Shown: one piece after another, positions 30,371-64,000 of the stretch | Layout: every line of letters begins with the position of its first letter | Position numbering within the stretch: the first letter of the stretch is position 1 | Assembly (NCBI RefSeq): GCF_020382885.2 | Contig: NC_058497.1 | Span: 20,018,330 to 20,082,329, forward strand | DNA from: Scatophagus argus | Taxonomy: Eukaryota; Chordata; Actinopteri; Scatophagidae | Length of the DNA: 64,000 nt | Reading direction: 5' to 3' | The notes under the pieces: model-generated | Told to the model about the DNA's origin: nothing | Databases searched by the model: none | What the model saw: only the letters and a program-made list of their open reading frames with translations | Position numbers and translations under genes: made by a program

Positions 30371-31291
30371 TCAAATATCTCTTTTGGACAAGCCAAATAG
30401 GACATTGTTTTTCAGTGCATGAAAAAATGTCTCATCTCTGAGGCCATAAATGAGAGGACTTAGACATTTTGGACCAAGAGTAAACATTATGTAGTTAAAG
30501 TACCTAACATCAGAAAATAACCTAACGCTGACCTGAAGCACAGCTGCTTCTATGAATGGGCACCACAAACCGATGACACAGAGCAGTAGCTGGATAGCAT
30601 GAAGAACTACTGTTTTGAGTCCTTTACTTGAAGATTGTTTATTCTCTCCTGACGCTGCTTTGGCTACTTTCATTATTTGAACATAACAGAATATAATGAT
30701 GATGCACATGATCAAGAAGTAAAACTGTTGTAAAGCTGATCTAACGTGACTCTGCCATTCCTTCAAAACAAATATTTCCGCCGAGCATATCATGTATTGT
30801 CTGTACATGCTACGAGAAGCTGATGTAAAGAAAGTGGAGAGAATAATAATGCAGGGTACAGAGCTGATGCCGTGAATGATGTGGATGCTGTACAGAGTCC
30901 TGCGTGTGGAGCACAGCTCTGCATGTCGGAGGGGCATGCAAATGGCCACGTAGCGCTCCAGGGTCATTGCTGTCAGAGTAACTGGTGTGACTATCACATT
31001 CAGAAATGCCACAGTGCAGATAATGATACACAACCAAACTTGAACTGTAAACTGACAATAGATCATGAGAAGAAGGATATCAGATAGAAGTAAAAACGTG
31101 CTATCAGACAGTAGTGTAACAGCAAATAAGATGTAGCGTGCAGTTGTGTGGAAGCATTCCTTTTTGAAAAATGTCACAATGAGTAACAAATCAGTGCTAA
31201 GAAAAATCAATATCACAATCTGGACAATAATAATTCGGTTATTATTCTGGTTCAACACTACCTCACCACCATCCGATGAATTGTCAGCCAT
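30371..31291 (-). CDS. Odorant receptor 131-2-like, array copy 1
   Basis: A 306-residue seven-helix odorant receptor. Sequon N4-S-S; helices about 19-41, 52-78, 84-117, 132-155, 188-210, 225-250, 264-284. Conserved C88 at the top of helix 3 pairs with a cysteine in loop 2 (C169). Helix 3 ends MTLERYVAICMPLR (107-122), helix 6 begins SSKGLKTVVLHAIQLLLC and helix 7 contains PLIYGLRDETF. ATG at 31291 is chosen. The frame is open upstream for 25 more codons, but a splice acceptor (TTTCAACAG, exon from 31304) falls inside that extension and the other copies have a stop there. The untranslated first exon ends at donor 31487 (GTGAGT), giving a 182-base intron in the 5' UTR. AATAAA on the minus strand at 30108-30103 may be the polyadenylation signal. 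It lies about 1.35 kb right of diablo, in the opposite orientation. Confidence 0.93.
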   Translation of the reverse strand: MADNSSDGGEVVLNQNNNRIIIVQIVILIFLSTDLLLIVTFFKKECFHTTARYILFAVTLLSDSTFLLLSDILLLMIYCQFTVQVWLCIIICTVAFLNVIVTPVTLTAMTLERYVAICMPLRHAELCSTRRTLYSIHIIHGISSVPCIIILSTFFTSASRSMYRQYMICSAEIFVLKEWQSHVRSALQQFYFLIMCIIIIFCYVQIMKVAKAASGENKQSSSKGLKTVVLHAIQLLLCVIGLWCPFIEAAVLQVSVRLFSDVRYFNYIMFTLGPKCLSPLIYGLRDETFFHALKNNVLFGLSKRDI

Positions 31292-32274
31292 GTATTGAAT
31301 GAGTCTGTTGAAAGAAAATGAGATTCTTATCACAACAAGACCAAAGCATCCCTGATGTTCATCCACAGCATCTTAACACACATTTCCAAAGCCGTGTGTT
31401 CAAAGCCAAAGCATTCTGAGTGAAGCCTGACTTTATTGGATTGACTGGAGTACAAGCAGAGTAAGAGACAATTAAAATTAACTCACCATGTGGTCATCAT
31501 TGCTACTTTCTCCTCATCCCCCAGAGGCCATCTGGGTTGCTGTAAACAAGCCACAGTTAGCTTGGGTTAGACTGTTGTACAGTCTCTGTCCTGAAGGTCA
31601 CAAATTAACATGAACATACAGTATCCTGATGGTGATGTACTGGGTTCTTTTACAGACAACAAAGACACTTTGAGAGTATGGCTCAGAACCTTTACTGGAT
31701 CAGCACATGCAAGTAAATAGTCCATGTGTGACTCTTAAGCTATTTAGTAGAGCTTTTTACCCAGAAACAGAGCCAGACATCATCAACAGACCACATCTCA
31801 TGTGGGCAGCAATGCCTGCCCTAACAGTAGACAACATCTGGCCCACATGCACTCTCAGATAGAGAGCAGACATCCTTTAGGAGGCATGGCTGCTGACAGA
31901 TTTGTTTATCCACATATGTAGGTTTCGAGTTCAGCAAAAATATATTTTAGAGTTTTGTATGTCTTATAGTTACATAGATCTTGAAAAATTAACCCTCTCA
32001 ATCTGGAGTAGCAGACATTTTTATTTTAACCTCTGTCTGTGAGACATTCCTCAGTCTCTGAGGTGAGTGAGGCAACAGGTGTTACAGCGAGGACCAAAGC
32101 AAGGGACTGATAGTAGAATTTCAAAGACAAAGTAGACAGCCAATCAGTTGGTCAATGTCGCTCACTCCCCCAATCTCTGCAAAAGCAATTCAACACTGGC
32201 AGAATAAAACTTTTTTAGAAACTATATAACTGTTGAACTGGAACTGTAAGTCAAAGTAATAAATACCTAATACA

Positions 32275-32741
32275 CAATATAGACAAAAATAGTGGGACAG
32301 ACTTTAGAGTAGAGTCACCCCCCTCTTGCGGCTATGGCAGCTTCCACTCTTCTGGGACGGCTTTCTGGAGTGTTTGTGGCGAAATTTTATCCATTCACGG
32401 AGTAGAGCAATAGTGAGGTCAGGCACTGATGTCGGATGAAAAGGCCTGGCTCGCAATCTACTTTCTAGATCATCCCATAAATGTTCAAATGGGTTGAGGC
32501 CAGTGCTCTGTGTGGGTCTGTCAAGTTCCTCAACAGCAAACTCATCCAACCATGTCTTTATGGAGCTTTGCTTTGTGTACTGGGGCACAGTCATAACGGA
32601 ATAGAAAATGGCCTCCCTCAAAGGAACTTTGGAACCTTGGAAGCATAGCATTGTCCAGAATGTCTTGGTATCCTGAGGTATAAAGATTTCCCTTCACTGG
32701 AAGTAAGGGGCCAAGCCCAGTAATAAAGAGGTGTGTCCCAG
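32275..32741 (-). mobile_element. Tc1-like transposon remnant, unit 1
   Basis: Bounded by ACAATATAGACAAAAATAGT followed by GGGACAG on the left and, on the right, GAGGTGTGTCCCAG, whose reverse complement matches the left end of the element in p4ha3 intron 7. On the minus strand it encodes a transposase C-terminal piece (KTWLDEFAVEELDRPTQSTG, then LNPFEHLWDDLE). The catalytic aspartate of the usual SPDLNP motif is replaced (STGLNP), and the N-terminal two thirds are absent. It is dead and now copies only as part of the array unit. Confidence 0.85.
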
Positions 32742-33017
32742 TAACTGAAACTGAAGGGGCAACGCAGAGTTAATAATCAATGAGGAACATGTAATTGGTC
32801 AAACTAACCGATAATTTTCTCTCCAATTCAGTAATTCCCGTTGAGAAGTCGACGCAGCCATTGACGACTATCAGAGTCAAGTTCCACTGATATCAATACT
32901 TTGGCAAAATGGCATACTGGTTCTGATTAATTGGCCCACTGTAGAGGTCCACCTTTAGCCATATTATGGCAGAGCAGACATGATAATCTTATTGGCTATG
33001 GGATGCAATCACAGTTA

Positions 33018-33957
33018 AATTGAGGGCCTTCACAAAACAGTTCATCCTCATAAGTGTCTGGGAGTACACATCACGGACAAACTCACATTGACTCTGAACA
33101 CCACACACATCACTCAGAAAGCCCAGCAGCTTGTGTACTTTCTGCAGAAGCTGAGGAAAGCCCATTTCCCAACCCCTGCCCCAACAACACTCTATAGGGG
33201 GACTACTGAGAGCATCCTCTGCAGCGCCATCACAGCATGGTTTGGCAACTGCACTGCTGCAGACCGAAAGGCCCTGCAGCCAATTGTGAGGATGACAGAA
33301 AAAATCACTGGGGCCTCTTTTCCCTCTCTCACGGACCTTTCCAACACGTGGTGTCTGTGCAAAGCCACGAGCATTAGCAGGGATACCACGGATCCCTCCC
33401 ATGCACTCTTCTCCTTACTGCCATCAGGAAGAAGGTACCACAGCATCACTGCCCGCACATCCAGAATGTGGAAAAGCTTCTTCCCCCAGGCAATCAAACT
33501 GCTGAATAACTCCTGACTTAAGTTGTGCAATGCACCTTAAAAGCACAACTGCACTTTCTCTCTGCTGCTATTTATATATTTATATATACTTTACATATAT
33601 TGCATACACTATGCATGTAACATATTCATCTATGTTGCTATTTATTTAAACTCTCTGCTGCTAGTTATATATTTATATACACTACAACTACTCTTCACTT
33701 GTAAACTTACTATATCTACAACCCCCCCCCGCCCCAAAAAAAAACAAAACAGTTCTGTTACTAGTCTTGTCCTGTTTTCGTGTCCTAAATGTGTATATTT
33801 AGATTATAGATTGTGCATAGCTTCTGTCTTGTCCTGTCTCACTGTCTTTCTAAAGTGTTAGATGTATCAACAAATTGTTCATGGGGAAACGTTACTTCAT
33901 CACACTGTGTACTTGTATATGACTCAGATGACAATAAAACCCATTTGACTTGAAGTG
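33018..33957 (+). mobile_element. 5'-truncated L2-like LINE, unit 1
   Basis: About 33028-33516 encodes the C-terminal end of a non-LTR ORF2: CLGVHIT-type start, then QKAQQLVYFLQKLRKAHFPT, YRGTTESILCSAITAWFGNC, TAADRKALQPIV, SLLPSGRRYHSI and a stop after KLLNNS. A 3' UTR follows and ends near GACAATAAAACCCATTTGAC. No upstream polymerase domain is present. The antisense strand also has a long open frame (33402-32989), which is a shadow. Same family as the copies in later units. Confidence 0.8.
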
Positions 33958-34629
33958 CAAATCATACCAGCTGTGCAAATAGGTATTTATATTACTTAGT
34001 TTGAGGGCTAACTGGCAAAATACTCTTACCAGAGGCCCGTTTGTGGACCAACACTTAAAGAGTTGAGGTATTGTTGAGCTCGATGGTGTTTTATTGAGTT
34101 TATGGATGCTGAATCAGTCTTTGTCACATTGTGTCTGCCTTTTTTTTTTTTCGTTTTTTTTGTTGGTTTTTTTGGAAGAAATTTCAATTTAATGCAACTG
34201 CTGGAACTTTTCTCTGTGATACTGGGTGATGTGAGAGAGACAAACTATCTTACTATGAACTATTTCTCAAGCTACTGGTGTGGATCCTGGAATATCAAGT
34301 ATGAGAATGTTTACTAAACATCGCATTGTTCAGCAAGGATTTATTGCAAACCAATCTGGTAGGGTTGTCAAATCTGCAGTTCATCTAATACAATAATATC
34401 AGCCACGCAGAAATAACAATTGCAATTGTGCAAAGTGTCATGTTGCACAAGAAAAAGAAGAAAAAGAAGACATGCTTTATTAATCCCCTCAGAGAAATGA
34501 TTTTTTCCCACTCTTGTTATTGACACACAGGCACAAGCAGGACCTATACACGTGCGTTAATGCATAACACAGATTTAATGTTAAAATATTCATGCAAATT
34601 TTCTTGATTGAAAGCCATTACATATTATA

Positions 34630-34826
34630 CGTTGAAGCACATATTCATTGAAGGTAATCAATGTAACATTAACAATCAGAATAATTGGGTTAGACGTATT
34701 CAGAACAAAGTAAACATATAATAATGATCACAGTGAGCACAAAGATTTTGGTATTGGAGGCCAAGGCAAGATGGACAGAATAATAATGCAGGGTTCAGAG
34801 CTGAGGCTGAGAATGATGAGGATGCA
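34630..34826 (-). pseudogene. Decayed odorant receptor relic (helix 4 to helix 5 remnant), unit 2
   Basis: On the minus strand, 34826-34770 reads CILIILSLSSEPCIIILSIL, clearly like the helix 4 stretch IHIIHGISSVPCIIILS of the array receptors, and about 34750-34690 reads IFVLTVIIIICLL, like helix 5. The intervening loop is deleted and stops follow. It abuts, at about 34826, sequence homologous to diablo intron 5. The same relic lies beside the other diablo exon copies (about 48233-48429 and 52766-52960). It is more diverged than any intact copy, so it predates the current array. Confidence 0.65.
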
Positions 34827-34983
34827 TCTGCTGTTTGTTTCTGGGAAGATGTCTCTCAGTTGTGCATAATACGAAAAATGTGGCCGTCTTTTTCAGATCT
34901 TCAGGTCGTGTTTGAACTTAAACCGGTGTCAACACTTTAACCTTCTCAGCAATTTTACAGACTGAGTCTTTGTGTGTTTCCAG

Positions 34984-35189
34984 GAGCTGAACAGAGATCC
35001 ATCATAGTGAGGACAAACATTCAGGTGGCACAGTCGCAGGTGGAAAAGGCCCAGAAACTGTCTGCGGATGCATATAAGAAGTTGGCTGAGACTAAAGTGG
35101 AAAAGATTCAAAGGATGGCAGAATACGCTGCATTTCAAGAAGATAGCAAGGAGCCTGAGCTGCATGAGGCTTATCTACGAGAGGATTAA
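34984..35189 (+). pseudogene. Duplicated diablo last exon, copy 1 (open, acceptor intact)
   Basis: Homologous to diablo exon 6 (28815-29020): same polypyrimidine tract and TTTCCAG acceptor, same length, and the frame is open from GAEQRS to EAYLRED and TAA. About 150 bases of intron 5 precede it (from about 34827), and the diablo 3' UTR with AATAAA follows. Compared with exon 6, several residues change, including three Glu to Lys changes. No other diablo exon lies nearby, so alone it is a gene fragment; it could act as an alternative last exon of the upstream diablo gene because strand and phase are right. Its protein sequence is identical to that of the copy at 53109-53314. Confidence 0.85.
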
Positions 35190-36134
35190 GACAAATTGGC
35201 ACAGATATTAGAAAAATGTAAAAAAAAAAATCTGAATTTGAAAGTTTAATGAAATGATTTGCCAACTATTTGCTATTCTTTACTACTGCATAAATCATTA
35301 TTTAAGACTATTTATTTGATTTGATAGTATTTGTCTGCTGCGCTTGGAGCTTCAGGAACAGCATATATTGTATGATATTTGGAATTATCTAACATCAGAT
35401 CATAACGCTGTATATCATATGTTTTACTGTAACAATCAATTTTCTTTTATAAAACTATTGTTTTTTTGTTTTCACTCAATAACAAAAAATAAAATGAATC
35501 GATGCATTTGATTTTGGTGGGTCCTTGTTTTTGTTTACCATATAAAGTAAAATTAGTCAGAACAAGACTTGCTAACCACTGACACCTACCACTTCACAAC
35601 ATGATGGGTTTGATGCTGAAGATTAATGACTCTTTTCAACAGTACGTAAAGCATGATGACTATGCAATGTGCCATTGTTAGTGTCAGCCATACAAGTTAA
35701 AACAGCATTTTGTCCTCAAGTCCTCAATTTGGAGGCCATTGAAAACAGAAAAGTTGGTGTCATTCACTGTGTGTGTGTGTGTGTGTGTGTGTGTGGTGCT
35801 TTTCTATACTTTTTTTATTTTTCTATATTTTTGCAAAATCTTCATGATTAACTTAAATATTAATAGCACAGATACCAACAATAAGGCATAGCAGTTGTTT
35901 ATTGTTTATACACTCCTGTCACGTCTGTGCTCCGTTTGGGTGCTACACAAGCCGGTAATCAGTTTTAATGTTAGAATACAAAAATCTGCTGAGCTTGTAT
36001 TATTGCTTGAAAAGCAGTGCAGTCGCAGTCAGGCTTAACAATAAGCTAGTTAGAAGTCTACTATTTTGAAATGCTAAAATGAATTGCAGACATTAATTTG
36101 TGCACTGTTTAGTTTCTTGTTAGAAAACAATTTA

Positions 36135-37055
36135 TCAAATATTTCTCTTCAACAAGCCAAATAGGATATTGTTTTTCAGTGCATGAAAAAATGTCTCATC
36201 TCTGAGGCCATAAATGAGAGGACTGAGACATTTTGGACCAAGCGAAAAAATTATGTAGTTAAAGTACCTAACATCAATAAATAACCTAACACTGACCTGA
36301 GGCACAGCTGCTTCTATGAATGGGCACCACAAACGGATGACGCAGAGCAGTAGCTGGATAGCATGAAGAACTACTGTTTTGAGTCCTTTACTTGAAGATT
36401 GTTTATTCTCTCCTGACGCCGCTTTGGCTACTTTCATTATTTGAACATAACAGAATATAATGATGATGCACATGATGAAGAAGTAAAACTGTTGTAAAGC
36501 TGATCTAATGTGACTCTGCCATTCCTTCAAAACAAATATTTCCACAGTGCATATCATGTATTGTCTGTACATGCTACGAGAAGCTGATGCAAAGAAAGTG
36601 GAGAGAATAATAATGCAGGGTACAGAGCTGATGCCGTGAATGATGTGGATGCTGTACAGAGTACTGCGTGTGGAGCACAGCTCTGCATGTCGGAGGGGCA
36701 TGCAAATGGCCACGTAGCGCTCCAGGGTCATTGCTGTCAGAGTAACTGGTGTGGCTATCACATTCAGAAATGCCACAGTGCAGATAATGATACACAACCA
36801 AACTTGAATTGTAAATTCAAAATAGGTCATGAGAAGAAGGATATTAGATACAAGTAAAAACATGCTATCAGACAGTAGTGTAACAGCAAATAAGATGTAG
36901 CGTGCAGTTGTGTGGAAGCATTCCTTTTTGAAAAATGTCACAATGAGTAACAAATCAGTGCTAAGAAAAATCAATATCACAATCTGGACAATAATAATCC
37001 GGTCATTCCTCTGGTTCAACACTACCTCACCGCCATCCGATGAATTGTCAGCCAT
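36135..37055 (-). CDS. Odorant receptor 131-2-like, array copy 2
   Basis: A 306-residue intact receptor with the same helices, ERY motif and PLIYGLRDETF as copy 1. Distinguishing residues: NQRNDR in the N terminus, LLVSNILLLMTYFEF in helix 2, VIRLWCPFIEAAVPQ in helix 6 and the C terminus LKRNI. It is nearest to copy 6 (54252-55172), from which I count six amino-acid differences. The untranslated first exon donor is at about 37245, and the frame upstream of the ATG is closed. Confidence 0.93.
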   Translation of the reverse strand: MADNSSDGGEVVLNQRNDRIIIVQIVILIFLSTDLLLIVTFFKKECFHTTARYILFAVTLLSDSMFLLVSNILLLMTYFEFTIQVWLCIIICTVAFLNVIATPVTLTAMTLERYVAICMPLRHAELCSTRSTLYSIHIIHGISSVPCIIILSTFFASASRSMYRQYMICTVEIFVLKEWQSHIRSALQQFYFFIMCIIIIFCYVQIMKVAKAASGENKQSSSKGLKTVVLHAIQLLLCVIRLWCPFIEAAVPQVSVRLFIDVRYFNYIIFSLGPKCLSPLIYGLRDETFFHALKNNILFGLLKRNI

Positions 37056-38007
37056 GTATTAAATGAGTCTGTTGAAAGAAAATGAGATTCTTCTCACAAC
37101 AAGACCAAAGCATCCCTGATGTTCATCCGCAGCATCTTGACACACATTTCTAAAGCCGTGTGTTCAAAGCCAAAGCATTCTGAGTGAAGCCTGACTTTAT
37201 AGGATTGACTGGAGTACAAGCAGAGACAATTAAAATTAACTCACCATGTCGTCATCATTGCCACTTTCTTCTCATCTCCCAGTGGCTATCTGGGTTGCTG
37301 TAAACAAGCCACAGTTAGCTTGGGTTAGACTGTTGTACAGTCTCTGTCCTGAAGGTCACAAATTAACATGAACATACAGTATCCTGATGATGATGTACTG
37401 GGTTCTTTTACAGACAATAAAGACACTTTGAGAGTATGGTTCAGAACCTTTACTGGACCAACACATGCAGGTAAATAGTCCATGTATGACTCTTAAGTTA
37501 TTTAGTAGAACTTTTTTCCCAGAAGCAGAGCCAGACATCATCAACAGACCACATCTCATCTGGGCAGCAATGCCTGCCCTAACAGTAGACAACATCTGAC
37601 CCACATGCACTCTCAGATAGAAACAGAGACAGATTTGTTTATCCACATATGTAGGTTTCGAGTTCAGAAAAAATATATTTTAGAGTTTTGTATGTCTTAT
37701 AGTTACATAGATCTTGAAACATTAACCCTCTCAATCTGGAGCAGCAGAATTTTTTATTTTAACCTCTGTCTGTGAGACGTTCCTCAGTCTCTGAGGTGAG
37801 CGAGGCAACAGGTGTTACAGCGAGGACCAAAGCAAGGGACTGATAGTAGAATTTCAAAGACAAAGTAGACAGCCAATCAGTTGGTCAATGTCACTCACTC
37901 CCCCAATCTCTGCAAAAGCAATTCAACACTGGCAGAATAAAACTTTTTTAGAAACTGGATAACTGTTGAACTGGAACTGTAAGTCAAAGTAATAAATACC
38001 TAATACA

Positions 38008-38474
38008 CAATATAGACAAAAATAGTGGGACAGACTTTAGAGTAGAGTCACCCCCCTCTTGCGGCTATGGCAGCTTCCACTCTTCTGGGACGGCTTTCTG
38101 GAGTGTTTGTGGCGAATTTTTATCCATTCATGGAGTAGAGCAATAGTGAGGTCAGGCATTGATGTCGGATGAAAAGGCCTGGCTCGCAATCTACTTTCTA
38201 GTTCGTCCCAAAGTTGTTCAAATGGGTTGAGGCCAGTGCTCTGTGTGCGCCTGTCAAGTTCCTCAACAGCAAACTCATCCAACCATGTCTTTATGGAGCT
38301 TTGCTTTGTGTACTGGGGCACAGTCATAACGGAATAGAAAATGGCCTCCCTCAAAGGAACTTTGGAACCTTGGAAGCATAGCATTGTCCAGAATGTCTTG
38401 GTATCCTGAGGTATAAAGATTTCCCTTCACTGGAAGTAAGGGGCCAAGCCCAGTAATAAAGAGGTGTGTCCCAG
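38008..38474 (-). mobile_element. Tc1-like transposon remnant, unit 2
   Basis: Same remnant as in unit 1, at the same position relative to the receptor, with the same ends and the same broken SPDLNP motif. It is a passenger of the unit duplication rather than an independent insertion. Confidence 0.85.
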
Positions 38475-38759
38475 TAACTGAAACTGAAGGGGCAACGCAT
38501 AGTTAATAATCAATGAGGAACATGTAATTGGTCAAACTAACCGATAATTTTCTCTCCAATTCAGTAATTTCCGTTGAGAAGTTGACGCAGCCATTGGCGA
38601 CTATCAGAGTCAAGTTCCACTGATATCAATACTTTGGCAAAATGGCATACTGGTGCTGATTAATTGGCCCACTGTAGAGGTCTACCTTTAGCCATATTAT
38701 GGCAGAGCAGACATGATAATCTTATTGGCTATGGGATGCAATCACAGTTAAATTGAGGG

Positions 38760-39437
38760 TCTTCACAAAACAGTTCATCCTCATAAGTGTCTGGGAGTAC
38801 ACATCACAGACAAACTCACATTGACTCTGAACACCACACACATCACTCAGAAAGCCCAGCAGCATGTGTACTTTCTGCAGAAGCTGAGGAAAGCCCATTT
38901 CCCAACCCCTGCCCCAACAACACTCTATAGGGGGACTACTGAGAGCATCCTCTGCAGCGCCATCACAGCATGGTTTGGCAACTGCACTGCTGCAGACCGA
39001 AAGGCCCTGCAGCCAATTGTGAGGACGACAGAAAAAATCACTGAGGCCTCTTTTCCCTCTCTCACGGACCTTTCCAACACGTGGTGTCTGTGCAAAGCCA
39101 CGAGCATTAGCAGGGATACCACGGATCCCTCCCATGCACTCTTCTCCTTGCTGCCATCAGGAAGAAGGTACCACAGCATCACCACCCGCACATCCAGAAT
39201 GTGGAAAAGCTTCTTCCCCCAGGCAATCAAACTGCTGAATAACTCCTGACTTAAGTTGTGCAATGCACCTTAAAAGCACAACTGCACTTTCTCTCTGCTG
39301 CTATCTATATATTTACATATACTTTACATATATTGCATACACTATGCATGTAACATATTCATCTATGTTGCTATTTATATGTGCTCTCTGCTGCTGTTTA
39401 TATATTCTGCTGCTAATTATATATTTACTAAACATCA
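38760..39437 (+). mobile_element. L2-like LINE fragment, unit 2
   Basis: Coding end as in unit 1 (open at 38821-39249). The 3' part lacks about 640 bases relative to unit 1: sequence jumps from CTAATTATATATTTA to CTAAACATCACATTG near 39420-39437. The same deletion is present in units 3 and 6, so these share a common short ancestor. Confidence 0.75.
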
Positions 39438-39809
39438 CATTGTTCTGCAAGGATTTATTGCAAACACAACTGGTAGGGTTGTCAAATCTGCAGTTCATCT
39501 ACTACAATAATATCAGCCATGCAGAAATAACAATTGCAATTGTGCAAAGCATCATGTTGCACAAGAAAAAGAGGGCATGCTTTATTAATCCCCTTATTGA
39601 CACACAAGCACAAGCAGGACCTATGCATGTGCATTAATGCATAACACAGATTTAATGTTAAAGATTTAATGCTAAAGATTAACGATACATAAAGAATGAT
39701 GACTATGCAATGTGCCATTGTTAGTGTCAACCATACAAGTTATAACAGCATTTCGTCCTCAAGTCCTCAATTTGGAGGCCATTGAAAAAAAGAAAAATTG
39801 GTGTCATTC

Positions 39810-53108: not shown

Positions 53109-53314
53109 GAGCTGAACAGAGATCCATCATAGTGAGGACAAACATTCAGGTGGCACAGTCGCAGGTGGAAAAGGCCCAGAAACTGTCAGCGGATGCATAT
53201 AAGAAGTTGGCTGAGACTAAAGTGGAAAAGATTCAAAGGATGGCAGAATACGCTGCATTTCAAGAAGATAGCAAGGAGCCTGAGCTGCATGAGGCTTATC
53301 TACGAGAGGATTAA
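53109..53314 (+). pseudogene. Duplicated diablo last exon, copy 3 (open, acceptor intact)
   Basis: Encodes the same protein sequence as the copy at 34984-35189 (RSIIVRTN, AQKLSADAYKK, AFQEDSKEPE, ending AYLRED) and shares its downstream sequence almost base for base. This shows that units 2 and 6 are recent duplicates of each other. Confidence 0.85.
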
Positions 53315-54251
53315 GACAAATTGGCACAGATATTAGAAAAATGTAAAAAAAAAAATCTGAATTTGAAAGTTTAATGAAATGATTTGCCAACTATTTGCTA
53401 TTCTTTACTACTGCATAAATCATTATTTAAGACTATTTATTTGATTTGATAGTATTTGTCTGCTGCGCTTGGAGCTTCAGGAACAGCATATATTGTATGA
53501 TATTTGGAATTATCTAACATCAGATCATAACGCTGTATATCATATGTTTTACTGTAACAATCAATTTTCTTTTATAAAACTATTGTTTTTTTGTTTTCAC
53601 TCAATAGCAAAAAATAAAATGAATCGATGCATTTGATTTTGGTGGGTCCTTGTTTTTGTTTACCATATAAAGTAAAATTAGTCAGAACAAGACTTATTGC
53701 TGACCACTGACACCTACCACTTCACAACATGATGGGTTTGATGCTGAAGATTAATGACTCTTTTCAACAGTACGTAAAGCATGATGACTATGCAATGTGC
53801 CATTGTTAGTGTCAGCCATACAAGTTAAAACAGCATTTTGTCCTCAAGTCCTCAATTTGGAGGCCATTGAAAACAGAAAAGTTGGTGTCATTCACTGTGT
53901 GTGTGTGTGTGGTGCTTTTCTATACTTTTTTTATTTTTCTATATTTTTGCAAAATCTTCATGATTAACTTAAATATTAATAGCACAGATACCAACAATAA
54001 GGCATAGCAGTTGTTTATTGTTTATACACTCCTGTCACGTCTGTGCTCCGTTTGGGTGCTACACAAGCCGGTAATCAGTTTTAATGTTAGAATGCAAAAA
54101 TCTGCTGAGCTTGTATTATTGCTTGAAAAGCAGTGCAGTCGCAGTCAGGCTTAACAATAAGCCAGATAGAAGTCTACTATTTTTGAAATGCTAAAATGAA
54201 TTGCAGACATTAATTTGCGCACTGTTTAGTTTCTTGTTAGAAAACAATTTA

Positions 54252-55172
54252 TCAAATATTTCTCTTCAACAAGCCAAATAGGATATTGTTTTTCAGTGCA
54301 TGAAAAAATGTCTCATCTCTGAGGCCATAAATGAGAGGACTTAGGCATTTTGGACCAAGCGAAAACATTATGTAGTTAAAGTACCTAACATCAATAAATA
54401 ACCTAACACTGACCTGAGGCACAGCTGCTTCTATGAATGGGCACCACAAACGGATGACACAGAGCAGTAGCTGGATAGCATGAAGAACTACTGTTTTGAG
54501 TCCTTTACTTGAAGATTGTTTATTCTCTCCTGACGCTGCTTTGGCTACTTTCATTATTTGAACATAACAGAATATAATGATGATGCACATGATGAAGAAG
54601 TAAAACTGTTGTAAAGCTGATCTAACGTGACTCTGCCATTCCTTCAAAACAAATATTTCCACAGTGCATATCATGTATTGTCTGTACATGCTACGAGAAG
54701 CTGATGCAAAGAAAGTGGAGAGAATAATAATGCAGGGTACAGAGCTGATGCCGTGAATGATGTGGATGCAGTACAGAGTACTGCGTGTGGAGCACAGCTC
54801 TGCATGTCGGAGGGGCATGCAAATGGCCACGTAGCGCTCCAGGGTCATTGCTGTCAGAGTAACTGGTGTGGCTATCACATTCAGAAATGCCACAGTGCAG
54901 ATAATGATACACAACCAGACTTGAATTGTAAATTCAAAATAGGTCATGAGAAGAAGGATATTAGATACAAGTAAAAACATGCTATCAGACAGTAGTGTAA
55001 CAGCAAATAAGATGTAGCGTGCAGTTGTGTGGAAGCATTCCTTTTTGAAAAATGTCACAATGAGTAACAAATCAGTGCTAAGAAAAATCAATATCACAAT
55101 CTGGACAATAATAATCCGGTTATTATTCTGGTTCAACACTACCTGACCACCATCCGATGAATTGTCAGCCAT
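54252..55172 (-). CDS. Odorant receptor 131-2-like, array copy 6
   Basis: A 306-residue intact receptor. From helix 2 onwards it matches copy 2 (LLVSNILLLMTYFEF, VIRLWCPFIEAAVPQ, FSLGPK, LKRNI), but its N terminus (NQNNNRIIIVQ) matches copy 1, which suggests a conversion tract. The untranslated first exon donor is at about 55362. The upstream flank has a deletion near 55457 (TGTACATCATCAACAGACC). Confidence 0.93.
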   Translation of the reverse strand: MADNSSDGGQVVLNQNNNRIIIVQIVILIFLSTDLLLIVTFFKKECFHTTARYILFAVTLLSDSMFLLVSNILLLMTYFEFTIQVWLCIIICTVAFLNVIATPVTLTAMTLERYVAICMPLRHAELCSTRSTLYCIHIIHGISSVPCIIILSTFFASASRSMYRQYMICTVEIFVLKEWQSHVRSALQQFYFFIMCIIIIFCYVQIMKVAKAASGENKQSSSKGLKTVVLHAIQLLLCVIRLWCPFIEAAVPQVSVRLFIDVRYFNYIMFSLGPKCLSPLIYGLRDETFFHALKNNILFGLLKRNI

Positions 55173-56003
55173 GTATTAAATGAGTTTGTTGAAAGAAAAT
55201 GAGATTCTTATCACAACAAGACCAAAGCATCCCTGATGTTCATCCACAGAATCTTGACACACATTTCTAAAGCCGTGTGTTCAAAGCCAAAGCATTCTGA
55301 GTGAAGCCTGACTTTATAGGATTGACTGGAGTACAAGCAGAGACAATTAAAATTAACTCACCGTGTCGTCATCATTGCCACTTTCTTCTCATCTCCCAGT
55401 GGCTATCTGGGTTGCTGTAAACAAGCCACAGTTAACTTGGGTTAAACTGCTGTACATCATCAACAGACCACATCTCATGTGGGCAGCAATGCCTGCTCTA
55501 ACAGTAGACAACATCTGACCCACATGCACTCTCAGATAGAGAGCAGACATCCTTTAGGAGGCATGGCTGCTGACAGATTTGTTTATCCACATATGTAGGT
55601 TTCGAGTTCAGAAAAAATATATTTTAGAGTTTTGTATGTCTTGTAGTTACATAGATCTGGAAAGATTAACCCTCTCAATCTGGAGTAGCAGACATTTATA
55701 TTTTAACCTCTGTCTGTGAGACGTTCCTCAGTCTCTGAGGTGAGCGAGGCAACAGGTGTTACAGCGAGGACCAAAGCAATGGACTGATAGTAGAATTTCA
55801 AAGACAAAGTAGATAGTCAGTCAGTTGGTCAATGTCGCTCACTCCCCCAATCTCTGCAAAAACAATTCAACACTGGCAGAATAAAACTTTTTTAGAAACT
55901 AGAGACTACAAGAGTTGTGGTTACTTAAAGCTCTGCTCATTGTATTTGTTGTTTTTGGACATACATGTTTTGTTTTCTATTTTTTGTACTTTGTAGCCCA
56001 GAG

Positions 56004-57007
56004 ATGTACAAATGCAAACAGTGTGGCCATGAGAGTGAAACTATAATAGGATTTACTCGTCATATGAAACTTCACAGTAATGCTCCAAACTGCCCTTTTA
56101 CCTATGGTGTCCCTGAATGTTCTCGTTCATTCAGAAAATTTGCAGTCTTCAAGTCTCATCTATACAGAGATCATAAAGGACATAAGTCTCACAGGAGTGA
56201 AGAAATTGACACAACACTGATTTGTCAGTTTGAGTTTTGTCAGGCTACATTTATAAATCTGAAGGATTTCCTTATTATTGCAAAGCTAGAGACTATATGA
56301 ATGACTAAAATGAATTAATTCAATCTATGGATATTTTCATGTGGAAGGGCAACAGAAAGAACATGCATCTAAAAATCCCAGAAGAACAATAATAAAGCAT
56401 ATGTTTATTTATGTTTAGGTGATGTTCTCACTCCAACGAGCTGGATGCTTAGCATTGAGGGACAAGTGGTTGTGGGTCCACAGCAGAACATTGTGGCTGG
56501 CATGGCAGTGTTTTTCTCGTGCTATTACATCTTCAATCTGGTGTACCAAGAGGATGCCTCGAGCACACTGGAATTCATTCAAGGGTAAGCGCTTCAAAGG
56601 GGATGCTAGTGGATTATTATTTAGTTACATTTTCCATTATGAATAACACATGGTGTAATTTTTCTTCAACTCCATGCATTGCAAAGCCTCTTTCTGCTTT
56701 AGCTTGCATGGACGGAATGTCTGCAATTAAAGCAAATTTTTGTTTTGAAGTTTTGCATATTTGGAAAAATGATAAGCTAGTCTCCACAACTTGATGGGTT
56801 TTGCTGTCTCTTCAAACAATGTATTTCATTAAGTGTCTTTTTCTCTGATTTTGTGACTTCAGATGCTTCATCGGGATCAACCCAACCTCTGGCACAAAGA
56901 TGACAAAGTGGATCAGTCCAAGAAGTGGGAAGGTGCACGAAAAGAGTAACAACAGTGTCAGCCCTCATATCTATGCACTTCTCAAAAGATTAATGGACTA
57001 TGAATGA
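56004..57007 (+). pseudogene. Fragment of a teleost multi-copy C2H2 zinc-finger gene (first and last exons only)
   Basis: An exon after acceptor TTTGTAG (about 55996) encodes MYKCKQCGHESETIIGFTRH and a second finger-like segment CSRSFRKFAVFKSHLYRDH. A third, CQFEFCQATFINLKDF, is cut short by a stop near 56298. Two further exons fit the C terminus of the same fish family: 56419-56584 (SWMLSIEGQVVVGPQQNIVA, then FNLVYQEDASSTLEFIQ) and 56863-57007 (CFIGINPTSGTKMTKWISPR, ending LLKRLMDYE), with GT-AG junctions. The large middle part of such genes is missing between 56300 and 56418. I know this family only as uncharacterised fish proteins and assign no function. The piece sits inside array unit 6, between 55895 and 57995, where unit homology is interrupted. 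Confidence 0.6.
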
Positions 57008-57358
57008 CTTTGAGCCTGTCGCAAAAGTAAGGACAATGACACACAGTATTTCTTTAACAAAAGTGGTTTCAAAATAAGTTTAGTTTTTACATGTTACACG
57101 TTTGACATTGTTGCTACAAATTTGAGTTGAATATGAGTGACTATGCTGCAATAGTCTTGTGCAGTCTGTCCAATGTTTATGCTTTCCATGCATATACCTA
57201 TTGGCTCATAAAAAGGAAAGTCACTTTAAGTTTCATACATTTCATACACATCTTTTATGCAATCTGGTACACTGTATTGAATATAATTGTATGATATAAT
57301 ACACACTGTATTAAGTCCAAATAAATGTGTTTTTGAAAGATGAAAGTGACATATTTTG

Positions 57359-57595
57359 TCATTGGAGGGAACTCACTCCAACGAAATTCGTGCTCTGCAT
57401 TTAACCCACCCAAGTGACGTGCACGCACACACAGCAAACCCGGGGCAGTGGGCGACCGCGTGCAGCGCCCGGGGAGCAGTGGGGGTTAGGTACCTTGCTC
57501 AAGGGTACCTCAGCCATGGACACCGGGACGGGGAATCAAACCAGCGATCCACCGGTTACGGGTCCGACACCCTAACCGCTGATCCACGACTGTAC
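57359..57595 (-). mobile_element. tRNA-derived SINE, second family, reverse orientation
   Basis: On the minus strand the head reads GTGGATCAGCGGTTAGGGTG with a box A-like TGGATCAGCGG, and box B GGTTTGATTCC (57542-57532), followed by the body seen on the plus strand as GGGGAGCAGTGGGGGTTAGG and TTGCTCAAGGGTACCTCAG. This is a widespread fish repeat by memory. It differs from the SINE at 63595. Confidence 0.65.
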
Positions 57596-57994
57596 TTTAT
57601 TTAACAGCTCAAGATAATCTAACGTAGTGTTGATATATTTTGGAGTATCAGCAGCCACAGCACGCCCAATTTCCTAAAGGTGACAAACAAAAATTAACTG
57701 TAAACCCATTCTACAGTAAGATACTGAATTATGAATAAGTAACAGCTATTTATTAGTAACATTAGTTGCCAAGTAACTCATGTAATTTGAATGGAATACA
57801 AGTTAAATATTGTAAACTAAAATACAATTAATGATTGTTTCTAATATAAAACAACAATACATTGCTGTAATTTATACACAGCAAAAAACTGCAAAACCTA
57901 TCCAGTAATTTAATATAATTATTTTTACAGTAATTAAAAACACTTTTACAGCACTTGGTATTTACTGTAAATTCTACAGGTAATTTGTTACAGT
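57596..57994. repeat. AT-rich stretch with repeated TACAGTAA-type motif
   Basis: Contains several ACAGTAA/TTACTGTA motifs in both orientations (for example near 57712, 57931, 57964 and 57987), as in a fish palindromic non-autonomous element. No gene. Confidence 0.35.
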
Positions 57995-58159
57995 ATGCAA
58001 TAATCTGTTGAGTTCGAATTGTTGCTTGAAAAGCAGTGCTGTCACAGCCAGGCTTAACAATAAGCTAGTTATAAGACAAGTACTTTTGAAATGCTCGTGT
58101 AAAATGAATTGCAGACATTAATTTGTGCACTGTTTAGTTTCTTGTTAGAAAACAATTTA

Positions 58160-58196
58160 TCAAATAGCTCTTTTGGACAAGCCAAATAGGATATTG
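58160..58196 (-). pseudogene. Odorant receptor terminal fragment (last dozen codons)
   Basis: Bases 57995-58159 match the receptor 3' flank of the array and 58160-58196 match the last 12 codons with the stop (SKRAI-type end, as in copy 4). Homology stops abruptly at 58196, where the unclassified repeat begins. The rest of the receptor is gone. Confidence 0.85.
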
Positions 58197-58718
58197 AGCG
58201 TCGTGGCTGACACTAAAAAGGCTGAACCCCGATGCACAGACAAAAGGCAGGGATGCGAGGCTGAGGTCTAAAAGCAAAAAATCTTTATTTAACAAAAATC
58301 ATAAACTAAACAAAAACAAAACCGGCTCACACTTACTGTGACTAGGATCAACTAAAGACTGTAGCAAAATGCATGGCATGGCAAGACGTTCATTCATTCA
58401 CAACACACATCACAACATTCCCGGCATGAAACAAAACACATTCAAACGCAACGCTCTGACACAGGTGACTGGGAACACGAGGACTAAATAGACAAGACAA
58501 TGAGACACAGGTGACACACATTAGGAGGGAGAAAGCAATCAGGAAAACCAAAAAGCAAAGCTACATGAAAACAGAACACACAGGGGAAGAGACGTTTTCA
58601 AAATAAAACAGGACATGACAAAAACCTTGAACCTAATACATGGAAACACAAGACACACATGGAACATGACACATGGACTCAAAACCAAAAGACAAAGCAT
58701 AAAAAACGCCAAGCATGA
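58197..58718. repeat. Unclassified interspersed repeat, second copy
   Basis: Begins AGCGTCGTGGCTGACACTAA like the copy at 23717 and shares blocks such as GACACAGGTGACACACATTA and GGAGGGAGAAAGCAATCA. It ends near 58718, where array-unit sequence resumes inside the Tc1-like remnant. Confidence 0.55.
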
Positions 58719-58799
58719 ATCTTGGTATCCTGAGGTATAAAGATTTCCCTTCACTGGAAGTAAGGGGCCAAGCCCAGTAATATAGAGGTGTGTCCCAGT
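58719..58799 (-). mobile_element. Tc1-like remnant, end piece only
   Basis: Only the right end of the unit's Tc1-like remnant is left (CTTGGTATCCTGAGGTATAA to GTGTGTCCCAG). The remainder was lost together with the receptor body. Confidence 0.75.
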
Positions 58800-59079
58800 A
58801 ACTGAAACTGAAGGGGCAACGCAGAGTCAATAATCAATGAGGAACATGTAATTGGTTAAACTAACCGATAATTTTCTCTCCAATTCAGTAATTCCCGTTG
58901 AGAAGTTGACGCAGCCATTGGCGACTATCAGAGTCAAGTTCCACTGATATCAATACTTTGGCAAAATGGCATACTGGTTCTGATTAATTGGCCCACTGTA
59001 GAGCTCCACCTTTAGCCATATTATGGCAGAGCGGACATGATAACCTTACTGGCTATGGGATGCAATCACAGTTTAATTG

Positions 59080-59760
59080 AGGGCCTTCACAAAACAGTTC
59101 ATCCTCATAAGTGTCTGGGAGTACACATCACGGACGAACTCACATTGACTCTGAACACCACACACATCACTCAGAAAGCCCAGCAGCATGTGTACTTTCT
59201 GCAGAAGCTGAGGAAAGCCCATTTCCCAACCCCTGCCCCAACAACATTCTATAGGGGGACTACTGAGAGCATCCTCTGCAGCGCCATCACAGCATGGTTT
59301 GGCAACTGCACTGCTGCAGACCGAAAGGCCCTGCAGCCAATTGTGAGGACGACAGAAAAAATCACTGGGGGCTCTTTTCCCTCTCTCACGGACCTTTCCA
59401 ACACTTGGTGTCTGTGCAAAGCCACAAGCATTAGCAGGGATACCACGGATCCCTCCCATGCACTCTTCTCCTTACTGCCATCAGGAAGAAGGTACCACAG
59501 CATCACTGCCCGCACATCCAGAATGTGGAAAAGCTTCTTCCCCCAGGCAATCAAACTGCTGAATAACTCCTGACTTAAGTTGTGCAATGCACCTTAAAAG
59601 CACAACTGCACTTTCTCTCTGCTGCTATCTATATATTTACATATACTTTACATATATTGCATACACTATGCATGTAACATATTCATCTATGTTGCTATTT
59701 ATATATGCTCTCTGCTGCTGTTTATATATTCTGCTGCTAATTATATATTTACTAAACATC
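59080..59760 (+). mobile_element. L2-like LINE fragment, unit 6/7
   Basis: Coding end open to 59573, with the same short 3' form as unit 2; the following 370 bases match unit 2 (39263-39637) closely. Confidence 0.75.
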
Positions 59761-60528
59761 ACATTGTTCTGCAAGGATTTATTGCAAACACAACTGGTAG
59801 GGTTGTCAAATCTGCAGTTCATCTACTACAATAATATCAGCCATGCAGAAATAACAATTGCAATTGTGCAAAGCATCATGTTGCACAAGAAAAAGAAGGC
59901 ATGCTTTATTAATCCCCTTATTGACACACAAGCACAAGCAGGACCTATGCATGTGCATTAATGCATAACACAGATTTAATGTTAAAGATTTAATGCTAAA
60001 GATTAACGATACATAAAGCATGATGACTATGCAATGTGCCATTGTTAGTGTCAACCATACAAGTTATAACAGCATTTTGTCCTCAAGTCCTCAATTTGGA
60101 GGCCACTGAAAACAGAAAAGTTGGTGTCATTCACTGTGTGTGTGTGTGTGGTGGTGTATACTTTTTCAGACATTTTGACAAAAATAAAATGCTTTGCAAA
60201 ATCTTCATGATTAACTTAAATATTAATGGCACAGATACCAACAACAAGGCATAGCAGTTGTTTATTGTTTATACACTCCTGTCATATCTGTGCTCCGTTT
60301 GGGTGCTACACGAGCTGGTAATCAGTTTTAATGTTGTCTCCTCAAATGAACAATGATGTAAGAATACAATAATCTGCTGAGTTCGACTTGTTGCTTGAAA
60401 AGCAGTGCAGTCACAGTCAGACTTAACAATTAGCTAGTTAGAAGTCAAGTACTTTTGAAACGCTCATGTAAAATGAATTGCAGACATTAATTTGCGCACT
60501 GGTTAGTTTCTTGTTAGAAAACAATTTA

Positions 60529-61449
60529 TCAAATATTTCTCTTCAACAAACCAAATAGGATATTGTTTTTCAGTGCATGAAAAAATGTCTCATCTCTGAG
60601 GCCATAAATGAGAGGACTTAGACATTTTGGACCAAGAGTAAACATTATGTAGTTAAAGTACCTAACATCAATAAATAACCTAACACTGACCTGAAGCACA
60701 GCTGCTTCTATGAATGGGCACCACAAACCGATGACGCAGAGCAGTAGCTGGATAGCATGAAGAACTACTGTTTTGAGTCCTTTACTTGAAGATTGTTTAT
60801 TCTCTCCTGACGCTGCTTTGGCTACTTTCATTATTTGAACATAACAGAATATAATGATGACGCACATGATGAAGAAGTAAAACTGTTGTAAAGCTGATCT
60901 AATGTGACTCTGCCATTCCTTCAAAACAAATATTTCCACAGTGCATATCATGTATTGTCTGTACATGCTACGAGAGGCTGATGCAAAGAAAGTGGAGAGA
61001 ACAGCAATGCAGGGTACAGAGCTGATGCCGTGAATGATGTGGATGCAGTGCAGAGTCCTGCGTGTGGAGCACAGCTCTGCATGTCGGAGGGGCATGCAAA
61101 TGGCCACGTAGCGCTCCAGGGTCATTGCTGTCAGAGTAACTGGTGTGACTATCACATTCAGAAATGCCACAGTGCAGATAATGATACACAACCAAACTTG
61201 AATTGTAAATTCAAAATAGGTCATGAGAAGAAGGATGTCAGATAGAAGTAAAAACGTGCTATCAGACAGTAGTGTAACAGCAAATAAGATGTAGCGTGCA
61301 GTTGTGTGGAAGCATTCCTTTTTGAAAAATGTCACAATGAGTAACAAATCAGTGCTAAGAAAAATCAGTATCAGAATCTGGACAATAATAATCCGGTCAT
61401 TCCTCTGGTTCAACACTACCTCACCACCATCCGATGAATTGTCAGCCAT
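60529..61449 (-). CDS. Odorant receptor 131-2-like, array copy 7 (last intact)
   Basis: A 306-residue intact receptor. It matches copy 3 closely, with Arg at codon 122 (CGA) where copy 3 has a stop. It has IAVLSTFFASAS in helix 4 like copies 3 and 4, RRTLHCIH at the start of helix 4, and C terminus LKRNI. The untranslated first exon donor is at about 61645. The unit to its right has the small Tc1-like deletion shared with unit 3, supporting a block duplication. Confidence 0.93.
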   Translation of the reverse strand: MADNSSDGGEVVLNQRNDRIIIVQILILIFLSTDLLLIVTFFKKECFHTTARYILFAVTLLSDSTFLLLSDILLLMTYFEFTIQVWLCIIICTVAFLNVIVTPVTLTAMTLERYVAICMPLRHAELCSTRRTLHCIHIIHGISSVPCIAVLSTFFASASRSMYRQYMICTVEIFVLKEWQSHIRSALQQFYFFIMCVIIIFCYVQIMKVAKAASGENKQSSSKGLKTVVLHAIQLLLCVIGLWCPFIEAAVLQVSVRLFIDVRYFNYIMFTLGPKCLSPLIYGLRDETFFHALKNNILFGLLKRNI

Positions 61450-62432
61450 GTATTAAATGAGTCTGTTGAAAGAAAATGAGATTCTTATCACAACAAGACC
61501 AAAGCATCCCTGATGTTCATCCACAGCATCTTGACACACATTTCCAAAGCTGTGTGTTCAAAGCCAAAGCATTCTGAGTGAAGCCTGACTTTATTGGATT
61601 GACTGGATTACAAGCAGAGTAAGAGACAATTAAAATTAACTCACCGTGTCGTCATCATTTCCACTTTCTTCTCATCTCCCAGAGGCTATCTGGGTTGCTG
61701 TAAACAAGCCACAGTTAGCTTGGGTTAGACTGTTGTACAGTCTCTGTCCTGAAGGTCATAAATTAACATGAACATACAGTATCCTGATGGTGATGTACTG
61801 GGTTCTTTTACAGACAATAAAGACACTTTGAGAGTATGGCTCAGAACCTTTACTGGACCAACACATGCAGGGAAATAGTCCATGTGTGACTCTTAAGTTA
61901 TTTAGTAGAACTTTTTACCCAGAAGCAGAGCCAGACATCATCAACAGACCACATCTCATGTGGGCAGCAATGCCTGCTCTAACAGTAGACAACATCTGGC
62001 CCACATGCACTCTCAGATAGAGAGCAGACATCCTTTAGGAGGCATGGCTGCTGACAGATTTGTTTATCCACATATGTAGGTTTCGAGTTCAGAAAAAATA
62101 TATTTTAGAGTTTTGTATGTCTTATAGTTAAATAGGCCCTGAAACATTAACCCTCTCAATCTGGAGTAGCAGAATTTTTTATTTTAACCTCTGACTGTGA
62201 GACGTTCCTCAGTCTCTGAGGTGAGTGAGGCAACAGGTGTTACAGCAAGGACCAAAGCAAGGGACTCACACTGGATTTTCAAAGACAAAGTAAATCGTCA
62301 GTCAGTTTGGTCAATGTCGCTCACTCCCCCAATCTCGGCAAAAGCAATTCAACACTGGCAGAATAAAACTTTTTTAGAAACTGGATAACTGTTGAACTGG
62401 AACTGTAAGTCAAAGTAATAAATACCTAATAC

Positions 62433-62881
62433 ACAATATAGACAAAAATAGTGGGACAGACTTCAGAGTAGAGTCGCCCCCCTCTTGTGGCTATGGCAGC
62501 TTCCACTCTTCTGGGACGGCTTTCTTGAGTGTTTGTGGCGAAATTTTATCCATTCACGGAGTAGAGCAATAGTGAGGTCAGGCACTGATGTCGGATGAAA
62601 AGACCTGGCTCGCAATCTACTTTCTAGTTCGTCCCAAAGTTGTTCAAATGGGTGGGTCTGTCAAGTTCCTCAACAGCAAACTCATCCAACCATGTCTTTA
62701 TGGAGCTTTGCTTTGTGTACTGGGGCACAGTCATAACGGAATAGAAAATGGCCTCCCTCAAAGGAACTTTGGAACCTTGAAAGCATAGCATTGTCCAGAA
62801 TGTCTTGGTATGCTGAAGTACAAAGATTTCCCTTCACTGGAAGTAAGGGGCCAAGCCCAGTAATAAAGAGGTGTGTCCCAG
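62433..62881 (-). mobile_element. Tc1-like transposon remnant, last unit
   Basis: Same remnant with the small internal deletion also found at 41805-42253 (CAAATGGGTGGGTCTGTCAA near 62645). Confidence 0.85.
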
Positions 62882-63114
62882 TAACTGAAACTGAAGGGGC
62901 AACGCAGAGTTAATAATCAATGAGGAACATGTAATTGGTCAAACTAACTGATTATTTTCTCTCCAATTCAGTAATTGCCGTTGAGAAGTTGACGCAGCCA
63001 TTGGCGACTATCAGAGTCAAGTTCCACTGATATCAATACTTTGGCAAAATGGCATACTGGTGCTGATTAATTGGCCCACTGTAGAGGTCCACCTTTAGCC
63101 ATATTATGCCAATA

Positions 63115-64000
63115 TGCCAATTGTGAGGACAACAGAAAAAATCACTAGCGCCTCTTTTGCCTCTCTCACGGACCTTTCCAACACTTGGTGTCTGCACAAA
63201 GCCACGAGCATTAGCAGGGATACCACAGATCCCTCCCATGCACTCTTCTCCTTACTGCCATCAGGAAGAAGGTACCACAGCATCACCGCCCGCACATCCA
63301 GAATGTGGAAAAGCTTCTTCCCCCAGGCAATCAGACTGCTGAATAACTCCTGACTTAAGTTGCACACTGCACCTTAAAAGCACAACTGCACTTTCTCTCT
63401 GCTGCTATCTATATATTTATACTATATATTTATTTATACTCTGCATACACTGCATATATTTCTCAACTGTTATTTATATATCTATATATTTATATGTACT
63501 CTGCATATATTTCTCCCTGATGTTATTTATATATTTATATATACTTTACATATATTGCGTATACTATGCATATAACATATTCATCTATGTTGCTGGGCGG
63601 CACGGTGGTGCAGTGGTTAGCACTGTCGCCTCATAGCAAGAGGGTTCCAGGTTCGAATCCCGGTCTGGGCCCTTCTATGTGGAGTTTGCATGTTCTCCCT
63701 GTGCCTGCGTGGGTTTTCTCCGGGTACTCCGGCTTCCTCCCACAATACCAAAAACATGCACATTAGGTTAATTGGCTACTCTAAATTGCCCCTAGGTGTG
63801 AGTGTGAGAGTGTGTGGTTGTTTGTCTTTGTGTGTTGGCCCTGCGATTGGCTGGCGACCAGTCCAGGGTGAACCCCGCCTCTCGCCCGTAGTCAGCTGGG
63901 ATAGGCTCCAGCCCCCCCGCGACCCTGACGGATAAGCGGTATAGAAAATGGATGGATGGATCTATGTTGCTATTTATATATACTCTCTGCGGCTGTTTAT
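63115..64000 (+). mobile_element. L2-like LINE fragment, last unit, interrupted by a SINE
   Basis: Only the last 79 codons of the coding end remain (to 63353); sequence upstream of 63115 is deleted relative to other units. The 3' UTR has expanded TATATTTA-type repeats at 63410-63560. It is split at 63594 by a SINE and resumes at 63960, running off the window. Confidence 0.75.
63595..63959 (+). mobile_element. tRNA-headed SINE with clean target-site duplication
   Basis: Head GGGCGGCACGGTGGTGCAGT with box A-like TGGTGCAGTGG and box B GGTTCGAATCC (63650-63660). The conserved body includes GGAGTTTGCATGTTCTCCCT and TCCGGCTTCCTCCCACA, and the 3' end is GGATAAGCGGTATAGAAAAT with GGAT repeats. It is flanked by ATCTATGTTGCT at 63583-63594 and 63960-63971, a 12-base target duplication inside the L2-like 3' UTR. 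It looks full length and recent. Confidence 0.92.

Follow-up and report, generated by a model that had tools for sequence, protein, structure and literature searches.

The DNA considered here is a stretch of 64,000 nucleotides from the fish Scatophagus argus (positions 20018330-20082329 of contig C5, which is 27.5 Mb long and belongs to an assembly of 571 Mb in 48 contigs); we refer to it as the window. From inside the apoptosis gene diablo to the end of the window runs an array of apparently type-2-like chemoreceptor genes, accompanied by copies of the last diablo exon and by transposon remnants. In our opinion, the array is the product of tandem segmental duplication: a birth-and-death receptor cluster, founded by breaks in two genes and reshaped later by unequal exchange, deletions and sequence exchange. 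We put the probability of this explanation at roughly 0.92. Tandem duplication of this kind is ordinary and well known; what is unusual is that the founding breakpoints are still legible.

Repeats of at least 150 bp with a second copy in the window cover 89.8% of positions 28659-64000, as against 2.4% of positions 1-28658. Self-BLAST gives long direct repeats, for example 29863-37559 against 43458-51176 (94.7% identity over 7.8 kb), and a shuffled window used as a control returned the trivial self hit alone. The copies lie head to tail in a single orientation and preserve their order, with parts missing in U3, U4, U5, U6 and U7 (we number the units by their receptors: U1-U7 lie in the window and U8-U11 beyond its end, where the window numbering is continued downstream). 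The seven window receptors are all on the minus strand, at 30371-31291 (U1), 36135-37055 (U2), 40240-41160 (U3), 43977-44897 (U4), 49756-50676 (U5), 54252-55172 (U6) and 60529-61449 (U7). A preliminary description, made from the letters alone, had proposed tandem repetition of a unit from diablo to the window end, and this is borne out by the self-BLAST with its shuffled control; the spacings it gave (5.8, 4.1, 3.7, 5.8, 4.5 and 6.3 kb) are reproduced by the receptor starts, the first number of each span. However, copied sequence begins not at about 29.4 kb, as it had stated, but earlier, at 28659, in diablo intron 5. The claim that the same ordered set recurs holds for the order but not for the set, which is incomplete in several units: U5 lacks the Tc1 piece and almost the whole of L2, and U3, U4 and U7 lack the diablo tail. 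Past the window the contig carries four more receptor units, 11 in all, so that the array reaches about 82 kb, and the last diablo exon is found in six copies along its whole length.

The parent gene, diablo-1 (27201-29020, plus strand), is whole. Its six coding exons (27201-27337, 27499-27631, 27804-27929, 28185-28295, 28478-28574 and 28815-29020) encode 269 aa in a spliced frame that is open, with GT/AG borders throughout, and PF09057 is found by Pfam on three exon frames. The last exon matches Smac_DIABLO at E 4.6e-19 and solved DIABLO chains at E of about 4e-8, which confirms the identity that had been given to the repeated exon. AFPF precedes QQVENLSHDSL in a putative mature N-terminus, where we take the motif that binds inhibitor of apoptosis proteins and the cleavage site to lie. 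What has been copied is the gene's tail, 28659-29463, namely the end of intron 5, the last exon and the 3' untranslated region (UTR) with AATAAA at 29413. Copies on the same strand lie at 34825-35531 in U2 (exon 34984-35189), 48425-49129 in U5 (exon 48584-48789) and 52950-53656 in U6 (exon 53109-53314), and those beyond the window start at 65143, 73450 (from 28733 on) and 79474. The tail is thus found in 6 of the 10 downstream units (U2, U5, U6, U8, U10 and U11) and is missing from U3, U4, U7 and U9; within the window, the recurrence in "some units" of the preliminary description amounts to three of six downstream units (U2, U5 and U6).

The joints at which these tails begin tell most about the origin of the array. 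Five of the six tails (U2, U5, U6, U8 and U11) share one joint: 65 bp of receptor coding sequence give way to diablo at the same base in each. In a comparison of 56 bases, four of these joints are identical and U8 is one base off. The U10 joint differs and was rearranged later. In the window the receptor piece, of an older type and on the minus strand, lies at 34762-34826 in the long junction U1/U2, where it meets diablo intron 5 at about 34825, and at 48362-48426 (U4/U5) and 52887-52951 (U5/U6), with the same joint as at 34826. It reads GATGAGGATGCA, as does U12, an open frame of 310 aa at 84095-85027 with 62% protein identity to U2, whereas U1 and U2 read GATGTGGATGCT. The fragment has twelve matches in the older cluster beyond the array, at 88-95% over 59 bp, against 82-89% in the window receptors, and its match to U12 extends over 80 bp at 87.5%. 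Judged by its sequence, it is derived from an older receptor and not from one of the U1 type. We had also considered 34599-34780 as U1-type receptor DNA, but that match is no better than those of shuffles.

U12 follows a segment, D, at the far end of the array; this D is the only one beyond unit 11 in the fetched region, and because U12 adjoins it we name U12 as the broken gene. The bases CA are common to the joint, U12 and diablo at the seam, a microhomology of about 2 nt. Most likely, then, the duplicated stretch had one end in diablo intron 5 and the other within the coding sequence of U12. As the joints show, the first step would have been a head-to-tail duplication of the stretch that begins in intron 5 and ends midway through the coding sequence of the next, older receptor, with that microhomology at the seam; both broken genes would survive intact in the outer copies, and at the inner joint a piece of receptor would run into a diablo tail. 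Breaks inside two genes should leave whole genes at the edges and a chimeric joint inside, and this is exactly what is found: diablo-1 is whole at the near end and U12 at the far end.

Not all joints have this long form. The long-form segment D after U1 (34307-34598) is identical to 47907-48198, and in its place a variant, D', stands after U2, U3 and U6, and after U8 beyond the window. In the three short joints of the window (U2/U3, 39421-39690; U3/U4, 43200-43469; U6/U7, 59745-60014) D' directly abuts the receptor 3' flank, with near-identical sequence and no diablo tail. They lack the L2 tail piece with the start of D, and also the stretch from the end of D to the receptor flank. The four D' copies group together on a single branch (92/98). 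It is well supported that the short form arose by two deletions in one long unit and was then multiplied; as a second step, therefore, one unit would have lost the diablo tail with its joint by deletions, and the short form would have multiplied afterwards. The type of joint sets the spacing of the receptors, about 5.8 kb for long and 3.7-4.1 kb for short joints; the U5-U6 spacing is shorter because U5 has lost its Tc1 piece and almost all of its L2 sequence, and the U6-U7 spacing is longer because of a 2.8-kb insert.

One could argue instead that the short units never had a tail, and that they stem from an earlier duplication of their own, whose break fell at the receptor 3' flank. In its favour, D and D' are about 8% apart, as much as the tail copies are from their parent. 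However, two deletions in one long unit explain the short joints, and the receptor trees do not support a split between long and short units (45/7 in the seven-unit tree, no clade in the eleven-unit tree). We regard this alternative as rather unlikely.

For the third step we return to the long unit and its shortened descendants, which, judging from trees, spacing and steps of identity, would have been brought to 11 receptors by unequal exchange and sequence exchange, perhaps including the copying of a four-unit block. In the tree of receptor coding sequences the cherries are U1-U5 (92/96), U2-U6 (97/99), U3-U7 (56/40) and U4-U8 (99/99), each pair four units apart. By chance such an offset of four would be expected with a probability of 0.0005 under random labels, or 0.005 for any one shared offset, both computed after the pattern had been seen; the cherries suggest that a four-unit block was copied. 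Sequence exchange is best read from a tract around the long joint: over 33874-34875 the sequences after U1 and after U4 differ at only 4 of 1000 sites, whereas 57 of 2500 sites differ on its left and 145 of 2637 on its right (P 2e-6 when the left-hand rate is applied). Gene conversion argued from tree discordance alone was set aside, since the approximately unbiased (AU) tests do not reject the alternatives; the U1/U4 tract is the better evidence. Throughout these steps the receptors would mostly have stayed open, and the diablo exon and the transposon pieces would have been passengers.

Several observations weigh against parts of this reconstruction. Several other older receptors match the joint fragment as well as U12 does, or better. 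The gap that separates the end of the D match and the fragment measures about 220 bp at the joint and about 510 bp at U12, so that a further deletion (or decay) must be assumed. A period of four units in the joint types holds in two of four cases: U1/U2 and U5/U6 are both long and U2/U3 and U6/U7 both short, but U3/U4 is short where U7/U8 is long, and U4/U5 long where U8/U9 is short. The flank trees back U2-U6 on both sides, U4-U8 on the 3' side only and U3-U7 on the 5' side only, and the 3' flank tree pairs U7 with U9 (98/99). Finally, when AU tests were applied to the receptor block of units U1-U7, three other groupings were left unrejected (p 0.12, 0.34 and 0.47), so that more than one order of the later steps would fit.

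It might also be objected that the array is an artefact, in which one or two units were multiplied by misassembly or by unmerged haplotypes. Tandem arrays of units that are 94-99% identical are a known trouble spot of assembly. However, the receptor copies differ by 0.7-5.6% and their flanks by up to 9.4%, with indels that are not shared; inserts are specific to single units (the SINE-like one to U1, the 2.8-kb one to U6); the ends of the array run into the whole diablo gene on the near side and into older receptors on the far side; and there is no N in the fetched stretches of this 27.5-Mb contig. An artefact is very unlikely, as far as can be told from the sequence.

The tandem duplication also explains why an apoptosis gene is involved at all: the left breakpoint lay in the last intron of diablo, so that the tail of the gene was copied with the rest. 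The preliminary description spoke of recruitment of the diablo 3' end into the receptor expansion. We disagree with this wording. The exon lies on the opposite strand, poly(A) signals on both strands stand between it and the window receptors, and no frame is fused. All seven window receptors have a minus-strand AATAAA about 240-320 bp past the stop, ahead of any diablo tail, and the three window tails each retain their own plus-strand AATAAA; with separate signals and genes placed tail to tail, no fusion is expected in the window units. We therefore reject functional recruitment by the receptors: the strands are opposite, in the seven window units the poly(A) signals are separate, and no fused frame exists. 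The diablo exon is a passenger in the array.

Judged by their substitutions, the copies look neutral. The three window tails are 92.5-93.1% identical to the parent, with substitutions at 8.4-9.7% in the intron piece, 5.9-6.9% in the exon and 6.5-7.6% in the UTR; gap columns number none in the exon, 103-111 in the 3' UTR and 7 in the intron piece. In U11 the exon has an in-frame insert of two codons. Among the parent and the five copies of equal length (U11 left out) there are 16 nonsynonymous and 7 synonymous changes (p 0.64 against an assumed neutral nonsynonymous share of 0.74), and thus no selection to keep the copies open is detectable in the substitutions of this set. To the idea that the copied exons serve as alternative terminal exons, with read-through from diablo-1 splicing exon 5 to a copy and giving DIABLO altered C-termini, we lend hardly any credence: all six copies do have an acceptor AG and a frame open to a stop, the three in the window would splice to native exon 5 in frame and lack gap columns, unlike the 3' UTR and the intron piece, and AATAAA is present in five of the six tails (not in U10), but that 16:7 ratio is near neutral, staying open has P 0.50-0.70 for 8-15 random changes (for a single copy, indels not included), exon substitution is hardly below that of the UTR, and transcripts would have to read on for at least 6 kb beyond the native poly(A) signal. 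If it were true, growth of the receptor cluster would also diversify the C-terminus of an apoptosis protein through a six-exon cassette.

The window receptors have 306 codons each, followed by two stop codons, and their DNA is 95-99% alike. Six of the seven keep an open frame of 306 aa; U3 is a pseudogene with a stop at codon 122. U8-U11 (minus strand, starts at 67523, 71334, 75990 and 81788) are all open. Pfam finds 7tm_1 on U1, with no 7tm_4 row at E 0.05 or better on U2 (7tm_1 at E 1e-16) and none at E 0.01 on U1; the nematode Srv model matches both, barely above its cut-off. Read by eye, the translations lack the motif KAFSTCXSH, and where MAYDRYVAIC is expected they have MTLERYVAIC, so that RYVAIC is retained and MAYD is not. 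On these grounds the genes look like type-2-like (eta or family H-like) chemoreceptors. A further minus-strand receptor, 32% identical to U2, lies at 20353-21363, upstream of diablo.

Among the receptor copies, nonsynonymous to synonymous changes number 59:19 in the seven of the window (about 1.18 times the neutral ratio, p 0.61) and 72:31 in all eleven (about 0.92, p 0.74); by substitutions, neither comparison shows purifying selection across the receptor as a whole. A stop occurs in U3 alone; under neutrality, at most one would be expected with P 0.27 (seven copies) or 0.17 (eleven), which is not rare. The 921 coding columns of the seven copies have no indels, as against 16 events in 561 columns of the 3' flank, where many fall at a single GT repeat, and 2 events in 509 columns of the 5' flank (six units), with variable columns numbering 74, 86 and 44, respectively. 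This absence of coding indels hints at constraint on the receptors. Amino-acid changes among the copies cluster at the N-terminus (codons 9-21) and close to where the second hydrophobic stretch ends (codons 76-83). There the nonsynonymous to synonymous count is 24:3, against 48:28 elsewhere (p 0.014, for stretches chosen after viewing the seven window copies); with wider bounds the seven copies give 28:5 (p 0.12). None of 10,000 random placements matched the crowding of nonsynonymous changes in one 15-codon stretch, and outside codons 9-21 and 76-83 the ratio is about 0.68 (p 0.13).

The transposon pieces, Tc1- and L2-like, were copied in register across units. They lie at 32179-33970 in U1 (Tc1-like at about 32320-32717, L2-like 3' end at 33019-33970), 37912-39406 in U2, 41710-43185 in U3, 45785-47572 in U4 (with the L2 tail), 58695-59730 in U6 and 62332-63594 in U7, where there is an internal deletion and the array continues past the window. 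That the whole unit was duplicated and carried them along, without repeated insertion, had been proposed before, and alignments that run through the edges of the remnants agree with it. The fixed positions also claimed are found for the Tc1 and L2 pieces, but not for a SINE-like repeat (a presumed short interspersed nuclear element) at 29464-29741, flanked by TTTTGTT. It is present in U1 only; as the matching sites in U2, U5 and U6 are empty, it was inserted after the duplication. The Tc1-like identity is weakly supported (DDE_3 at E 0.011, below the curated cut-off), and the L2-like one rests on the 3' sequence and an open reading frame. Pfam ALKBH8_N (PF09004) scores above its cut-off on the L2-like 3' end at 33019-33513, which looks like a family model catching retrotransposon sequence. 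Short open frames in the remnants (e.g. 33019-33516) would reflect youth and not function.

The 2.8-kb insert of U6 (55904-58694) replaces part of the Tc1 piece, between receptor and L2; no convincing terminal inverted repeats were found in it. At 57992-58366 it holds an old receptor 3' fragment, 72-77% alike, which points either to a receptor lost in the past or to transfer out of another unit, and at 55929-56297 an open frame that is C2H2 zinc-finger-like (Pfam E 0.0008, below cut-off).

Beside diablo, the receptors and the L2 and Tc1 pieces, the gene content of the window includes C2CD3- and P4HA-type domains, a combination that would suit a teleost. Past U12 come eleven more open older receptors (12 with U12, counting frames of at least 280 aa that hold ERYVAI) and several broken pieces. 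These older receptors, at 84095-127268, have 59-66% protein identity to U2 in full-length matches, and four of the 12 open frames are on the plus strand. The eleven fall into three groups with protein identities within the group of 93-98%, 90-95% and 97-99%, which indicates that the older cluster was itself recently duplicated. On its far side, at 129956-131817 (C5:20148285-20150146), lies a second, diverged and putative diablo gene, with exon matches of 72.5% and 65.2%, two more at 40.5% and 39.3% (the last crosses an intron), and AIPF after the leader. In the 571-Mb genome Smac_DIABLO has at least 14 matches, and all of those listed fall within about 104 kb here. About 100 kb of receptors thus lie between two diablo paralogues, an arrangement that suggests that the same neighbourhood had been duplicated once before.

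How does this array compare with known ones? The human 7E duplicons of Newman and Trask (2003) reportedly carry receptors in larger duplicated blocks that are dispersed over chromosomes and mostly pseudogenes. Here too receptors travel with other sequence, but the array is local and mostly open. In zebrafish, odorant receptor (OR) subfamilies are, in the excerpted text of PMC1325023, largely contiguous and usually co-oriented, which is ascribed there to tandem duplication. Our array is likewise contiguous, co-oriented and tandem; unlike the expansions described in that text, it has readable founding breakpoints and a non-receptor passenger tail. In the same excerpt family H lacks KAFSTCXSH and keeps MAYDRYVAIC. 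The absence of KAFSTCXSH, the RYVAIC motif, the uninterrupted frame and 7tm_1 make the receptors resemble type 2 OR eta or family H as portrayed in portions of PMC1325023, PMC3324471 and PMC8661438; unlike that family they have not kept MAYD, and the likeness is one of motifs and Pfam. Theta, kappa and lambda receptors are mostly single-copy according to the excerpt of PMC8661438, so that the many copies here would favour eta. A split between 7tm1 and 7tm4 is described for percomorph ORs in the excerpt of PMC6988351. For pig OR5AN1 a "high-speed rail" model of unequal sister-chromatid exchange is given, with units flanked by the short repeat CCTT (PMC8831618, in excerpt); there, as here, a receptor unit was multiplied in tandem, but the founding joint here shares about 2 nt and fuses two gene pieces. 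A thin search of the open-access literature found no account of a receptor array that contains diablo pieces, and the word diablo is absent from the excerpted texts of PMC1325023 and PMC6988351.

Automatic annotation may list false diablo copies at this locus. The clustering of changes at codons 9-21 and 76-83 is a small but testable hint of receptor diversification. Above all, the locus offers a clean case of a young receptor expansion whose breakpoints can be read in a neighbour's last intron and in an older receptor, and it illustrates how receptor arrays come to be strewn with parts of unrelated genes that have no evident role.

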